A stretch of DNA of 31,717 nt from a virus. The translations under genes were made by a program, and so were the position numbers. The notes beneath the pieces were generated by a model that was not told the origin of the DNA, did not search any database, and was given only the letters and a program-made list of their open reading frames with translations. The stretch's first letter is position 1. Every line of letters begins with the position of its first letter. This document shows, in pieces, positions 1 to 31,717 of this stretch. The DNA is taken from positions 1 to 31,717 of IMG/VR virus record IMGVR_UViG_3300030329_000532; one strand, given 5' to 3'.

Positions 1-384
1 ATAAGAGAAGCAAATTTTAGAGAAATTGTATTAGATGAATTTAAAAAAGTGTTTATAAATGAAGATGAAAAGAACTATAATGATTTTTGTGATTACTGGA
101 CTGAATCAAATGATGCACCTAATAGTAAGCTAAGATTTGAAAAGCAAAGAACCTTTAGTATTAAAAGAAGATTAGCTAAGTGGATCAAGAATAATAAAGA
201 GTGGGATAAGAATACTAATACATCTACAGGTTATAAATCAGAAGATTATCCATTTGAACCTAATGGTTATAATAGAATGGGTTGGTGTGAAAAGTGTAAT
301 ATATGTGATTTTTATAATAAGTTTACAATACATAAAGAAGATAGCAGATGTTGTAATGCTAAAATATTACCTAAAAGAAAGTGA
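1..384 (+). CDS. Replication initiator, C-terminal part only (allele A copy)
   Basis: Open from the first base, this frame encodes the last 127 residues of the 266-aa winged-helix replication protein found whole at 29952-30752. The shared residues are identical in the two copies, although the DNA differs at 13-14 third codon positions. The C-terminal half carries a Cys-rich putative zinc site (C-x2-C-x2-C, later a CC pair). This copy stops with TGA after PKRK, whereas the other copy adds Glu-Val before its stop. The 5' truncation is an artefact of where the contig opens the circle, so the GTG at 49 is an internal Val codon and not a start. The stop overlaps the GTG start of the next gene (GTGA). 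Confidence 0.85.
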   Translation: MREANFREIVLDEFKKVFINEDEKNYNDFCDYWTESNDAPNSKLRFEKQRTFSIKRRLAKWIKNNKEWDKNTNTSTGYKSEDYPFEPNGYNRMGWCEKCNICDFYNKFTIHKEDSRCCNAKILPKRK

Positions 385-512
385 GAATAGATAAAGAAAC
401 ACAAGATAGACATTCTGATGAATTTCAGTATTTTGTAAGTGAAATAAATAGAGGAATGGAATTAATAAAAGAAGGTAAGTGGAACATAATAGATTATAGA
501 ATGAACATGATA
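1..512. repeat. Contig-end overlap, allele A (pairs with 30363-31717)
   Basis: Bases 1-77 are identical to 30363-30439 and bases 436-512 are identical to 31641-31717. First mismatches fall at base 78 (T against C at 30440) and base 435 (G against A at 31640). Between the anchors this copy is the short allele, lacking the Mom-like gene. Two exact 77-base anchors around a variable interior are what a de Bruijn assembler with k=77 leaves when it walks a circle and then the second arm of a strain bubble. I read this as an assembly overlap, not a physical terminal repeat. Confidence 0.8.
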
Positions 513-599
513 GAAGTTGCAGAAAAAATTAGATTGCCTTATCAAGATATATTAGAAATGAAACAAAAATTAAAAGATTTATTAGAGGAAACAAAGTAA
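381..599 (+). CDS. Hypothetical 72-aa early protein
   Basis: Not recognised. This small, highly charged, probably all-helical protein is rich in Glu, Lys, Ile and Met, with no membrane segment and no Cys motif. It starts at GTG, overlapping the preceding TGA (GTGA). The start is supported by the second copy at 31586, which has ATG at the same codon. Between copies the visible 44 codons differ by Ser to Ala, Val to Ile and two silent changes. It lies between the replication initiator and RusA, so a role in early DNA metabolism is only a guess from position. Its stop codon is part of the long hairpin that follows. Confidence 0.7.
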   Translation: MRIDKETQDRHSDEFQYFVSEINRGMELIKEGKWNIIDYRMNMIEVAEKIRLPYQDILEMKQKLKDLLEETK

Positions 600-663: not shown

Positions 664-1083
664 ATGAAAAAACTTAATCTAATAGTAGAAGAACAGCCAG
701 TAGCACAGAAAAGACACAGGCATCATAAGTTTGGAGTGTATGATCCAAGTAGTAAGGATAAGATAAGAATCAAGAGCATGTTATTAAATCAAGTAAGAAA
801 GTTTTATACAGATAAGCCAGTATCAGTAATAATTGCATTTAAAATACAAAGGCCTAAATCACATTTTAGAACAGGTAAGTATAGCCACTTATTAAAAAAG
901 AAAGTACCATTGTTCCCTACCTCAAAATCTACAAAAGATTTGGATAATCTGGTTAAAATTTATTTAGACATTTTGACCTTATTAAAAGTATGGGATGATG
1001 ATAGCCAAGTAATAAACTTATCTGCTAGTAAACAATATGTAAATGATAATCCAGCAACAGAAATAACTATATATAAGATATGA
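664..1083 (+). CDS. rusA: RusA-family Holliday junction resolvase
   Basis: This is a 139-aa protein of typical RusA length. The family core is visible: a basic N-terminal QKRHRH segment and YDPSSKDK, then KDLDNLVK (residues 91-98) and VWDDDSQV (109-116). The Asp residues at 92 and 94 and within 111-113 match the metal-binding acidic residues of RusA, and Lys98 sits where the family has its conserved Lys. RusA enzymes cut four-way junctions in recombination and replication intermediates; in a phage this would resolve branched DNA before packaging. It overlaps the following nuclease gene by ATGA. The preceding hairpin may control its translation. Confidence 0.9.
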   Translation: MKKLNLIVEEQPVAQKRHRHHKFGVYDPSSKDKIRIKSMLLNQVRKFYTDKPVSVIIAFKIQRPKSHFRTGKYSHLLKKKVPLFPTSKSTKDLDNLVKIYLDILTLLKVWDDDSQVINLSASKQYVNDNPATEITIYKI

Positions 1084-1529
1084 ATAAAGATTCACCATTT
1101 GATGAAAGATTAGAAGGTGGGAAAAAAACAGAAGATTTGTTTGTTGAATTTTGTAAGAATAATAAGATATTATGTTATAAGTATGAGAATGAAAGTTGTT
1201 ATGATAGAAAGAATAGAGTAGTTAGAAATGCACCAGATTTCATAGTTATAAATAAGAGGCTATCATTTGTTGAAGTTAAGGGTGGTTGGTATGCAATAAA
1301 TTTAAAGATAAAAGATTTTGAATCATATGAAGAATGGAATAATACACTAAAAGTATTTTATTGTTTTTATTTTTATAATGTTAAAAAGTTTATATCAGTA
1401 TCACATGATACATTAATAAAGTATATACCTCTATGTAAAATAGGGCAATATAAAAAGGATGTTAAGAAGTATGATGATAAAAAGTATTATATAATACCTT
1501 ATAAATGGTGGGAAAAAGGTTTAATATGA
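1080..1529 (+). CDS. PD-(D/E)XK superfamily nuclease
   Basis: This 149-aa protein carries the core signature of the PD-(D/E)XK nuclease fold: APDF at residues 51-54 (Pro52, Asp53), then FVEVKGG at 63-69 (Glu65, Lys67), with an acidic Glu-Asp pair near residue 18 in the first helix. The C-terminal third is rich in aromatic and Lys residues (KYYIIPYKWW), a possible DNA-binding surface. The gene starts on an ATGA overlap with rusA and ends in one with the methyltransferase, so all three are probably translated together. Family members include VRR-NUC, Hjc-like and restriction-type enzymes; the subfamily cannot be set by eye. Pairing with a methyltransferase leaves a restriction role possible but unproven. 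Confidence 0.75.
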   Translation: MNKDSPFDERLEGGKKTEDLFVEFCKNNKILCYKYENESCYDRKNRVVRNAPDFIVINKRLSFVEVKGGWYAINLKIKDFESYEEWNNTLKVFYCFYFYNVKKFISVSHDTLIKYIPLCKIGQYKKDVKKYDDKKYYIIPYKWWEKGLI

Positions 1530-2137
1530 TTGATTTAATATTAGATGATTGCATGAATGTTATGAGTAAGTATGATGATAATCATTTTGATTTGGCTATT
1601 GTTGATCCACCTTATGGAATAGATATAGCAGAATGGGATAAAAAAGAAATGAAACCAAATAAAAAGTATTTCAATGAATTGTTTAGAGTATCACAAAATC
1701 AGATTATATGGGGAGGTAATTACTTTGAACTACCACATAGTGAAGGTTGGTTATGTTGGGACAAAACATATAAATACAATCAAAAATTAAATGTTGGTGA
1801 ATTTAAACTTGCTTGGACATCTTTTGATAAAAAACATAAATTTATAAGATATACAAGTTGTGGAAATTTTCAAGGTTGGAATAATCCAAGAGCAGATTAC
1901 ACAAAACAAAAATCATTCCACCCAACAAGCAAACCTATACCAATTTATGAATGGCTGTTAAAAAACTATGTAGAAAAAGGACAAAAGATATTAGATACAC
2001 ATCTTGGTAGTGGTAGTATTGCAGTTGCCTGTCATTACTTTGGTGTTGATTTAGTTGGAATAGAAATAGATGAAGAATATTATAATAAAGCAAAAGAAAG
2101 AGTAGAAAAACTAACATTACAGAACACATTGTTTTGA
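1526..2137 (+). CDS. Class-beta DNA methyltransferase (N6-adenine or N4-cytosine)
   Basis: A 203-aa SAM-dependent DNA methyltransferase with circularly permuted (beta) motif order. The catalytic DPPY lies at residues 27-30, followed by HPTSKP at 132-137, then the SAM-binding DTHLGSGS at 157-164 and GIEID at 178-182. DPPY indicates transfer to an exocyclic amino group (A-N6 or C-N4), not C5-cytosine. I start it at ATG 1526, which makes an ATGA overlap with the upstream stop and follows a GGGAAAAAGG-like ribosome site; an upstream in-frame ATG at 1505 is less likely. It is short for the family, with a compact target-recognition part between residues 40 and 130. Its target sequence is unknown. 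Confidence 0.9.
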   Translation: MIDLILDDCMNVMSKYDDNHFDLAIVDPPYGIDIAEWDKKEMKPNKKYFNELFRVSQNQIIWGGNYFELPHSEGWLCWDKTYKYNQKLNVGEFKLAWTSFDKKHKFIRYTSCGNFQGWNNPRADYTKQKSFHPTSKPIPIYEWLLKNYVEKGQKILDTHLGSGSIAVACHYFGVDLVGIEIDEEYYNKAKERVEKLTLQNTLF

Positions 2138-29339: not shown

Positions 29340-29498
29340 ATGGCTGATAAAGTGAAAAATGCAAGAGTAATAGCAATAGATGCTCATACTCATAAAATTC
29401 TTAGGATCTATGCAGCACAGAATGATAAAGGTATTGCTGAGGTTGCAAATAAAGCTATACTTCAATATATAGCTACATCAGAAATGATTAAATCATGA
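29340..29498 (+). CDS. Ribbon-helix-helix-like small regulator (52 aa)
   Basis: Runs from ATG 29340, after GGAGA, to TGA 29498. The sequence ARVIAIDAHTHKILRIYAAQ followed by NDKGIAEVANKAILQYI has the plan of Arc/CopG regulators: one short strand, helix A, a turn, and helix B. Such dimers bind DNA through the strand. It could control the early genes. The stop overlaps the next start (ATGA). Assignment is by pattern only. Confidence 0.55.
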   Translation: MADKVKNARVIAIDAHTHKILRIYAAQNDKGIAEVANKAILQYIATSEMIKS

Positions 29499-29650
29499 TT
29501 TGTAATATTTGCAAAAAAGAGATTACTAAGGATAATGTTGTAAAGAATGGCCCTTATAAAACAAGAAAATGTAGGAAATGTTTAAACAAGATTATAAGGG
29601 CCTATAATGATAAAAGAAATAAGCAAAAAAAGAAAGATAAATGGTTCTAA
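29495..29650 (+). CDS. Zinc-ribbon micro-protein (51 aa)
   Basis: Starts at ATG 29495 in an ATGA overlap and ends at TAA 29650. Two CxxC pairs, MICNICKKE (C3, C6) and RKCRKCLNK (C26, C29), form a likely zinc-binding knuckle, followed by a very basic tail (NKQKKKDKWF). This layout suits a nucleic-acid-binding peptide, like the HNH-associated or 'CxxC...CRxC' finger proteins common in phage early regions; no HNH nuclease residues are present. Its 3' end overlaps the next frame. Confidence 0.6.
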   Translation: MICNICKKEITKDNVVKNGPYKTRKCRKCLNKIIRAYNDKRNKQKKKDKWF

Positions 29651-29951: not shown

Positions 29952-30752
29952 ATGGGTGGTTGGATTAGTTTAAATAGAAAGATATTGAAGAATCCTTTAT
30001 TACAAACTAGAGGAAAATATAGCAAAAGAGAAGCATTTATTTACTTGCTACTTAAAGCTAATTATGAACCTAGTAAGTTTAATATTGGATCTGATATTAT
30101 TGATGTTGCAGCAGGGCAAATAGTTACCAGTATTAAAGGGTTATGCAAAGAGTTTAAATGGGGAAATACTAGGCTTAGAAACTTCCTAAAACTACTTAAA
30201 AAGGATGGAATGATTGATTATATTTCAACTAACAAACTAACACTCATAACTCTATTAAATTATAGCACTTATCAGAATAACAAACATCAAACAAACATCA
30301 AACAAACATCAAACACACATCAAACACACACATCTAATAAGAATAATAAATTAAATAAAGAAATAAGAGAAGCAAATTTTAGAGAAATTGTATTAGATGA
30401 ATTTAAAAAAGTGTTTATAAATGAAGATGAAAAGAACTACAATGATTTTTGTGATTACTGGACTGAATCAAATGATGCACCAAATAGTAAACTAAGATTT
30501 GAAAAGCAGAGAACCTTTAGTATTAAAAGAAGATTAGCTAAGTGGATTAAAAATAATAAAGAATGGGATAAGAATACTAATACATCTACAGGCTATAAAT
30601 CAGAAGATTATCCATTTGAACCTAATGGCTATAACAGAATGGGTTGGTGTGAAAAGTGTAATATATGTGATTTTTATAATAAGTTTACAATACACAAAGA
30701 AGATAGCAGGTGTTGTAATGCTAAGATATTACCTAAAAGAAAAGAAGTATGA
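29952..30752 (+). CDS. DnaD-like winged-helix replication initiator / replisome organiser
   Basis: A 266-aa protein preceded by AAGGGG. Residues 1-100 match the N-terminal winged helix of phage replisome organisers: GGWISLNRKILKNPLLQ, REAFIYLLLKANYEPS, AAGQIVTSIKGLCKEF, then TRLRNFLKLLKKDGMIDYIS and TLITLLNYSTYQ. A Gln/Thr/Asn/His linker (about 111-135) is encoded by DNA iterons. The C-terminal half is acidic to basic and ends in a Cys-rich site (WCEKCNICDFYNKF, then RCC). Such proteins bind the origin and load the host helicase. The 3' end overlaps the Mom-like gene by ATGA. In allele A the protein ends two residues earlier. Confidence 0.75.
   Translation: MGGWISLNRKILKNPLLQTRGKYSKREAFIYLLLKANYEPSKFNIGSDIIDVAAGQIVTSIKGLCKEFKWGNTRLRNFLKLLKKDGMIDYISTNKLTLITLLNYSTYQNNKHQTNIKQTSNTHQTHTSNKNNKLNKEIREANFREIVLDEFKKVFINEDEKNYNDFCDYWTESNDAPNSKLRFEKQRTFSIKRRLAKWIKNNKEWDKNTNTSTGYKSEDYPFEPNGYNRMGWCEKCNICDFYNKFTIHKEDSRCCNAKILPKRKEV
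30281..30362 (+). other. Candidate replication origin: 11-bp iterons plus AT-rich stretch
   Basis: Three perfect copies of CAAACATCAAA (30281-30313), one with a single change (CACACATCAAA, 30314-30324) and a shortened fifth (CACACACATC, 30325-30334) lie head to tail inside the replication gene. The 11-bp unit is close to one helical turn and is not a multiple of three, so the protein sequence does not repeat in phase. Directly after comes a stretch almost without G or C (30335-30362). Iterons within the initiator gene next to an AT-rich unwinding region is the lambda O / P22-type origin plan. Confidence 0.65.
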
Positions 30753-31516
30753 AGGCACATCAAAAAATAATTAGAGAAAAAATGGAAATTGAAGAAACAC
30801 ATAATCTTTTTGGTAGTTGGTGGGATAATATAAACAAAAGCAAAAGCAATGCAAATGTTAAAGAAATAACCAGAGAAAAAGCACTTCCAATAATACTTAA
30901 ATATGAATGGTTAGGAACATTACCTGTTAATTTTATTAAATTTTGTGGCTTATATTTTGATGGTGCATTAGCTGGTGTAACTTGCTTTGTAGAGGTTAAG
31001 TTTGGTGGAAAATATACATTGTGGAATTATCCTGCTGTTTGTTTAGGTAGGGGTGCTTGTGTACATTGGTGTCCTAAATGGGGTGCTTCATATTTAATAC
31101 AAAAAAGTTTGAAAATATTATTTTCAGATAAAGACCCTTTATATGTTGTTGCTTTTTCTGATTGGAAAGCAGGAGAAATAGGAACTATATATCAAGCCTG
31201 TAATTGGTTTTATTTAGGACATAAAGGAACAAAGGAATGGATTGATAAAAATGGAAAAAGATATGATATAAACACACCTGCTGTTAGAGCTGTTACTGGG
31301 TTTCAAAGAAAAAATAACCCTAATTTAAGAGCAACTAAAAAGCAGAGAAAAAAAGAAGAACAAAAAATGATAAATGAAGGATATAAATTAGTATTAGGGC
31401 CAACAAGAGGGAAATATGCAACAGTTGTTGGGAAAAAAAATAAAACATATAGAGAAATGGTTAAATTATTAAAAAATAACAATAAACCATATCCAAAAAG
31501 AAATAGTGCCACATAG
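30749..31516 (+). CDS. mom: Mom-like DNA-adenine modifying acyltransferase
   Basis: This 255-aa GNAT-type protein resembles phage Mu Mom. The key block VVAFSDWKAGEIGTIYQACN (133-152), with following W153 and Y155-LG, matches the Mom-family pattern 'SfaD...GhiGtIYQAsnW.Y.G'. Upstream, FIKFCGLYFDGALAGVTCF (62-80) is the substrate-fold strand pair, and the C-terminal PYPKR also recurs in the family. Mu Mom converts adenines to N6-methylcarbamoyl adenine and so blocks restriction. An additional N-terminal 35 residues and a basic region at 195-210 are present. It starts in an ATGA overlap with the initiator gene, and is absent from the other allele of the same locus. It contains no CG, like the rest of the genome. 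Confidence 0.8.
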   Translation: MKAHQKIIREKMEIEETHNLFGSWWDNINKSKSNANVKEITREKALPIILKYEWLGTLPVNFIKFCGLYFDGALAGVTCFVEVKFGGKYTLWNYPAVCLGRGACVHWCPKWGASYLIQKSLKILFSDKDPLYVVAFSDWKAGEIGTIYQACNWFYLGHKGTKEWIDKNGKRYDINTPAVRAVTGFQRKNNPNLRATKKQRKKEEQKMINEGYKLVLGPTRGKYATVVGKKNKTYREMVKLLKNNNKPYPKRNSAT

Positions 31517-31579
31517 GTATCAAGAGAGATACACAATGCTACCAGTATTGAGGGTTCAGGGCAGTTCTGAAATGTGGCT
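31508..31579 (+). ncRNA. tRNA-shaped RNA, degenerate elbow (anticodon position ACC)
   Basis: The bases fold with exact tRNA geometry: acceptor GCCACAT / ATGTGGC (7 bp), two linker bases, D-like arm GTATC-AAGAGA-GATAC (5 bp), one base, anticodon-like arm CAATG-CTACCAG-TATTG (5 bp with one G-T, 7-base loop, T at 33, A at 37), a 4-base variable loop, T-like arm TTCAG-GGCAGTT-CTGAA (5 bp, 7-base loop), then the acceptor and one unpaired base. Loop centre ACC would read Gly GGU. But U8, the D-loop GG and the T-loop TTCRA are missing and no CCA is encoded. It may be a decayed tRNA, a decoy or a structural RNA. The Mom-like stop codon lies in its first arm; it is on allele B only. Confidence 0.5.
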
Positions 31580-31585
31580 CAAGAT

Positions 31586-31717
31586 ATGAGAATAGACAAA
31601 GAAACACAAGATAGACATGCTGATGAATTCCAGTATTTTATAAGTGAAATAAATAGAGGAATGGAATTAATAAAAGAAGGTAAGTGGAACATAATAGATT
31701 ATAGAATGAACATGATA
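31586..31717 (+). CDS. 72-aa early protein, N-terminal part (allele B copy)
   Basis: The first 44 codons of the gene seen whole at 381-599, cut by the contig end. It begins with ATG, where the other copy has GTG, which confirms the start codon position. Differences are Ser to Ala at residue 12, Val to Ile at residue 19 and two silent changes; the last 77 bases are identical. In this allele the gene is separated from the initiator gene by the Mom-like gene and the tRNA-shaped RNA, and no longer overlaps an upstream stop. Confidence 0.8.
   Translation, partial: MRIDKETQDRHADEFQYFISEINRGMELIKEGKWNIIDYRMNMI

Follow-up and report, generated by a model that had tools for sequence, protein, structure and literature searches.

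We find that an optional cassette in a CG-free phage pairs a gene for a Mom-family DNA modification enzyme with a tRNA-shaped RNA, and that members of this RNA family accompany Mom across divergent phages. We regard the RNA family and its link with Mom as secure. We propose, with a probability of roughly 0.7, that Mom and this dedicated RNA make up a two-part module, in which the RNA charged with glycine would act as Mom's glycyl donor and a glycinamide-type adenine product would result. The original prediction, made from the letters of the window (the whole stretch of DNA analysed, 31,717 nucleotides), had mentioned a tRNA-shaped RNA as a side detail. The RNA is indeed present in the insert, yet as a glycine-tRNA mimic partnered with Mom it is the main finding here.

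An optional cassette at a cargo slot

The window, an IMG/VR virus contig, is 31,717 bases long and its ends form an imperfect overlap; our allele comparison sets these two ends of one assembled metagenomic contig against each other. Performing the end-to-end comparison, we find that positions 1-380 repeat 30363-30742 and positions 382-512 repeat 31587-31717, both at 97% identity. In the left copy (allele A), AAAAGAAA runs directly into GTGAGAATAGA, and the initiator stop overlaps the GTG start of a 72-aa gene. In the right copy (allele B), the same two flanks enclose about 843 additional bases, with the Mom gene and the tRNA-shaped RNA as cargo. The original prediction had described one locus seen twice, with common flanking DNA, a direct initiator/72-aa gene join in allele A and an extra 0.84 kb without CG in allele B, and it was borne out on each of these points. 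The coordinates are collected in the table.

Table. Features of the insertion site and its surroundings in the window
Feature	Position	Strand	Basis and remarks
Initiator gene, 3' part, allele A, no insert	1..384	+	End-to-end comparison
72-aa gene following the site in allele A, with GTG start	381..599	+	Allele B copy has ATG at 31586 and runs off the contig end
RusA-like Holliday junction resolvase, which closes the cargo slot on the right	664..1083	+	phrog_140 E=7.1e-21
Putative DNA methyltransferase, DPPY motif (N6/N4 type), resident backbone	1505..2137	+	PF01555 E=4.8e-16
DnaD-like helicase loader / initiator gene, allele B	29952..30752	+	phrog_2514 E=1.5e-26
Optional insert, ~843 nt	30743..31585	+	Right-end allele only; missing between window 380 and 381; end-to-end comparison
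mom, predicted Mom-family DNA modification enzyme, 255 aa	30749..31516	+	PF25680, phrog_1384, 8BV8; ATG overlaps the initiator stop (ATGA)
Gly-tRNA-like RNA	31508..31579	+	Acceptor 31508-31514/31572-31578, discriminator U 31579; overlaps mom stop codon 31514-31516
D loop AAGAGA, without G18G19	31522-31527	+	Family alignment
Anticodon ACC (glycine)	31541..31543	+	U33 at 31540, A37 at 31544; C35, C36 in 34/34 family members
T loop GGCAGTT, without U55	31560..31566	+	Family alignment

The two copies of the initiator coding part differ at 13 positions, and all 13 changes are synonymous, which argues for two real alleles and not sequencing noise. Judging from these differences, we take the contig to record two alleles of one phage population. 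The single contig and its imperfect end overlap could also have come from an assembly chimera, with the module of another CG-free phage wrongly joined to the contig. We regard this as very improbable, since both insert flanks run on into resident genes at 97% with synonymous initiator changes only. Moreover, a CG-free relative (L001) independently has the same arrangement, and other relatives have an empty site or alternative occupants.

The whole window contains no CG dinucleotide against 716 expected, and the insert has none against 18 expected. Starting from RusA relatives, we found more than a dozen further CG-free contigs, with 0 CG over 4-12 kb stretches where ~70-250 are expected. This CG-free phage lineage (L323, L325-L331, L333-L335, L337, L338, L346 and the window) has DnaD-like, RusA and TerL genes in common. 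In the CG-free relatives, the interval between the initiator and RusA is empty or holds a C5-cytosine methyltransferase-like gene, an MT-A70 adenine methyltransferase gene, or Mom with the RNA; intervals that are either empty or hold an alternative DNA methyltransferase gene of C5 or MT-A70 type lie at L324:3240-4100, L327:3580-4500, L335:800-1500 and L337:760-1950. By gene content, the initiator-RusA slot is a swap site for predicted DNA-modification genes, and the Mom module is optional cargo there. The predicted presence/absence character of the module agrees with these same flanks found with and without the insert, and with relatives that are empty or otherwise occupied.

Comparing the window with L001, we noticed 83% DNA identity in the module and ~67% in the flanks and RusA, a difference that fits horizontal exchange. 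The insert had been suggested either to have come from another CG-free genome or to be a long resident, and this suggestion stands in part: a CG count of zero agrees with a long stay in CG-free genomes, the C3-G70 pair of the RNA avoids a CpG, and L001 is a CG-free phage that shares the module. The further idea that CG avoidance goes together with Mom was rejected, as most phages with the RNA-Mom pair have CG observed/expected ratios of 0.5-1.3. On these ratios, CG avoidance is a trait separate from the Mom/RNA module.

Some side observations concern the same genomes. The window genes that we counted encode Arg by AGA/AGG only. GATC is strongly avoided (observed/expected 0.02-0.17) in the Mom phages L010, L011, L177, L181, L200 and L313, which is perhaps a further layer of restriction escape. 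Upstream of the initiator (window 29495-29650) lies a gene for a 51-aa CxxC...CxxC zinc-ribbon-like protein, and comparable small proteins occur in relatives.

The Mom protein and its glycine tRNA-like neighbor

The insert protein matches the Pfam Mom family PF25680 (E=2.4e-17, 63.7 bits against a cut-off of 27.1) and phrog_1384, the PHROG of Mom-like proteins (E=2.4e-18). Its AlphaFold2 model (pLDDT 89.2, pTM 0.83) has a Mom/GNAT-like fold, and the best PDB fold match of the model is the phage Mu Mom 8BV8 (E=8.9e-11, probability 1.00), by its PDB title the inactive mutant S124A. A profile built from Mom relatives matches 8BV8 at E=1.4e-36. The Mu Ser124 is aligned with Ser114 of the insert Mom, a residue kept in 114 of 117 relatives; R101 is conserved in 115/117 and Y148 in 117/117. 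At its expected place, the acyl-CoA pyrophosphate-binding loop of GNAT enzymes, RxxGx[GA] (R/QxxGxG/A), was found in 0/117 Moms. Taking the Pfam and PHROGs matches, the predicted model against 8BV8 and the conserved catalytic residues together, we conclude that the insert gene encodes a true Mom, and the Mom-like identity proposed for it was upheld by both the family matches and the structure comparison. Despite a sequence identity of only ~20%, it resembles Mu Mom in fold, family profile, conserved Ser and the Tyr/Asn/Gly core. In contrast, Mu has Com and is without a detectable tRNA-like partner, whereas here mom overlaps the Gly-tRNA-like RNA.

The RNA folds into a cloverleaf with a 7-bp acceptor, U73, and D, anticodon and T arms (single-sequence fold z=-2.9). 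It scores 89.4 bits (E=1.8e-19) with our R1 covariance model, the window being part of the training set. The same RNA parts recur in the nearest relative, L001, whose anticodon and T stems differ by paired changes. Further members were obtained by pattern scans made without reference to Mom. Because some D-arm and T-arm positions were set in the retrieval pattern, the constancy of these loops is in part a product of selection; in the main scan, the anticodon, bases 8 and 73 and the end pairs of the acceptor were free to vary. A hand-specified cloverleaf applied to 14 members had 98.7% of cells paired. In the alignment of 34 distinct members, which was fitted to the model and hence leans towards the structure, 97.2% of cells were paired and 16 of the 22 pairs showed double changes; double-change cells numbered 223, versus 61 when shuffled, and covariation was 0.769 versus 0.172 shuffled and <=0.12 in slid-structure controls. 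ARAGORN and Rfam gave no match for the RNA on the window and its relatives, and BLAST of the RNA against isolate phages returned nothing credible. Running the pattern on 398 genomes of one bacterial phylum, we got one match, of the chance type; a D-arm 15-mer scan gave mostly chance matches, which were retained as negative controls.

The bacterial Gly determinants are U73, G1-C72, C2-G71, G3-C70, C35 and C36 (PMC9976931 Table 1). The pairs G1-C72 and C2-G71 and the bases C35 and C36 are each present in 34/34 family members, U73 in 33/34 and G3-C70 in 26/34. The family thus carries the bacterial glycine identity set, except that pair 3-70 is C-G in the window RNA. CG-free phages have C3-G70; a G3-C70 pair, the usual one, would introduce a CpG there, and the exchange looks like a sign of an RNA adapted to the CG-free background. 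The best matches of the RNA model in bacterial genomes include ordinary tRNA-Gly genes.

The cloverleaf and the Gly anticodon, together with GGT as the top Gly codon (255/481 in the window genes counted), would suit an ordinary phage tRNA-Gly for translation. This role is barely credible for an RNA that shares bases with a coding sequence and goes together with Mom. All 34 members have A8 in place of U8, the D loop is without G18G19 and the T loop without U55, and U33 is kept in 19/34 and replaced in 15/34, mostly in a CCC-anticodon clade. The family therefore departs from canonical translating tRNAs at U8, G18G19, U33 and U55 and in its detection by tRNA finders. It shares the cloverleaf, anticodon and discriminator base with the canonical tRNA genes of phages, but it is missed by ARAGORN and Rfam and lacks their tertiary-contact bases. 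Judged by sequence, a phage-encoded mimic of bacterial tRNA-Gly is the best explanation of the RNA. Separately, tRNA-like RNAs with the same odd D/T arms and a Thr anticodon (GGT) were seen at L186:6165-6232 and L189:1147-1214, in a large phage without Mom, just past the 3' end of an apparently normal tRNA; the unusual elbow thus seems to exist beyond the Gly/Mom pair.

Association of the RNA with Mom across phages

The RNA was present at ~70 bits or more in 42 viral records, 41 of which encode Mom above the Pfam cut-off, and the sole record without Mom is a 6-kb fragment. Control records with chance motif matches only had Mom in 0/30 cases (Fisher p=2e-19 against 41/42, the records being partly related and not all independent). 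RNA-bearing Moms spread over several deep clades of the Mom tree, where supported branches force at least 7 label changes. Three pairs of phages combine a divergent Mom with a nearly constant RNA: L001/L004 (Mom 28% identical, 1 RNA difference, flanks 90-93%), L092/L081 (32%, 0 RNA differences, flanks 85-97%) and L198/L020 (31%, 4 RNA differences). As read from these alignments, Mom was exchanged three times for a ~30%-identical Mom while the RNA was retained.

The layout of the two parts varies. AT-rich phages have the mom stop codon within the RNA or just past it. In GC-rich phages, the RNA is within the mom ORF, which reads through it; at L191:1304-2443, L195:2162-3091 and L173:7850-8659, where the mom frame crosses the RNA, the transcript may give either full Mom or processed RNA. 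Certain larger phages have the RNA at a distance from mom (~5 kb in L010; L046 and L048 are further cases), which implies that the RNA can act in trans. The overlaps raise the question of whether the RNA regulates mom, as a 3'-end structure or charging sensor that acts on mRNA stability or translation in a role like Mu Com control. Because the RNA overlaps the mom message, its processing would cut that message. However, a cis hairpin needs neither a conserved GlyRS identity set nor C35/C36, and the phages with distant RNA, these three among others, do not fit. We therefore consider a regulatory role improbable.

Looking from the side of Mom, the RNA is found in a minority. A Gly-cloverleaf finder located it near 30/121 Moms on the coding strand and 0/121 on the reverse, with no further variants, and 3/50 Mom records had an RNA match. 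Among loci picked by Mom alone, L243, L241, L002 and L240 have weak tRNA-like matches at the Mom 3' end. Such matches of ~20-38 bits (L002, L240, L241, L243, L281) count by their position beside Mom alone, as ordinary tRNA genes score equally. The RNA model had 0/14 matches on isolate phages with Mom, Mu among them. Since no copy of the RNA is detectable in the majority of Mom phages, Mu, Melnitz and RaK2 among them, Mom has to be capable of functioning in its absence, perhaps by using host Gly-tRNA. We also observed a second, different Mom gene directly 3' of RusA on a CG-free contig (L004:121-807), and several large phages with two or three Moms.

Glycyl-tRNA as the proposed donor

The Mu Mom product is purinyl-glycinamide, according to the title of Swinton 1983 as cited in PMC3874153. 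One published proposal for the donor is an acyl-CoA, for instance glycyl-CoA (PMC7824862), which counts against our reading of the RNA as donor. From the observed family, its fold, identity set and non-translating features, its association with Mom and its retention through partner exchange, we infer a course of charging, escape from translation, transfer, rearrangement and protection. After tRNA 3'-end processing and CCA addition, host glycyl-tRNA synthetase would charge the RNA with glycine. Owing to its non-standard elbow and anticodon loop, the charged RNA would be a poor substrate for EF-Tu and the ribosome, and hence be left for Mom. Mom, with its GNAT-like fold, catalytic Ser and no acyl-CoA P-loop, would then transfer the glycyl group to the adenine N6 of phage DNA. 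By chemical reasoning, acyl transfer alone would give N6-glycyl-adenine, and the carbamoylmethyl form would arise if the glycine nitrogen took over C6; such an intramolecular rearrangement from N6-glycyl to N6-carbamoylmethyl would yield the glycinamide-type product known from Mu. The modified phage DNA would resist restriction, and Moms without an RNA partner would draw on host Gly-tRNA. We think it rather probable that this is tRNA-dependent DNA modification, i.e. that the enzyme takes a group from an aminoacyl-tRNA and the phage supplies its own non-translating Gly-tRNA.

A parallel for a Gly-tRNA set aside from translation is found in S. aureus, where the non-proteinogenic tRNA-Gly feeding FemX has also lost G18G19, is thought to escape EF-Tu and the ribosome, and serves FemX/A/B as glycine donor to a modification enzyme (PMC4052509). 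Replaced G18G19 and weak EF-Tu binding mark the FemX type, and of these our RNA family shows the absence of G18G19. There the acceptor is a peptidoglycan precursor, whereas here it is proposed to be DNA adenine. The present RNA is moreover phage-encoded and further from tRNA, with no U8, no U55 and a free U33.

The toxins TacT and AtaT, the latter among the matches in the fold search with the Mom model, are likewise GNAT-fold proteins acting on charged tRNA, and TacT acts on Gly-tRNA through U73 and G71 (PMC9976931). They acetylate the charged amino acid with acetyl-CoA; unlike them, Mom is without the acyl-CoA P-loop and modifies DNA. The toxin precedent raises another role for the RNA, namely a counter-defence decoy or substitute for tRNA-Gly (against anticodon nucleases, aminoacyl-tRNA-acetylating toxins or similar) that travels with Mom as anti-defence cargo. 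Anti-defence genes do collect in phage cargo slots, and this site holds other modification genes too. Mere cargo-sharing, however, would give the RNA varied partners, and the Mom link in 41/42 records holds across deep Mom clades and also where the RNA is not adjacent. A decoy role is thus unlikely.

In the open-licence literature, this RNA look-alike was previously unlisted, and Mom's donor has so far only been guessed, although knowledge of the glycinamide-type product dates back to 1983. That a conserved mimic of glycine tRNA accompanies Mom in divergent phages speaks for Gly-tRNA rather than acyl-CoA as the donor, and the optional cassette gives a hint of how Mom-modified viral DNA could acquire its glycine-like decoration. 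If the donor reading is true, the RNA would be a new non-coding RNA family missed by current tRNA finders, and the two small parts would offer a compact DNA-tagging tool. Mu-type Moms without the RNA would then use host Gly-tRNA, so that the question of the Mom reaction's donor would be settled, and DNA would join the acceptors of aminoacyl-tRNA-dependent chemistry.
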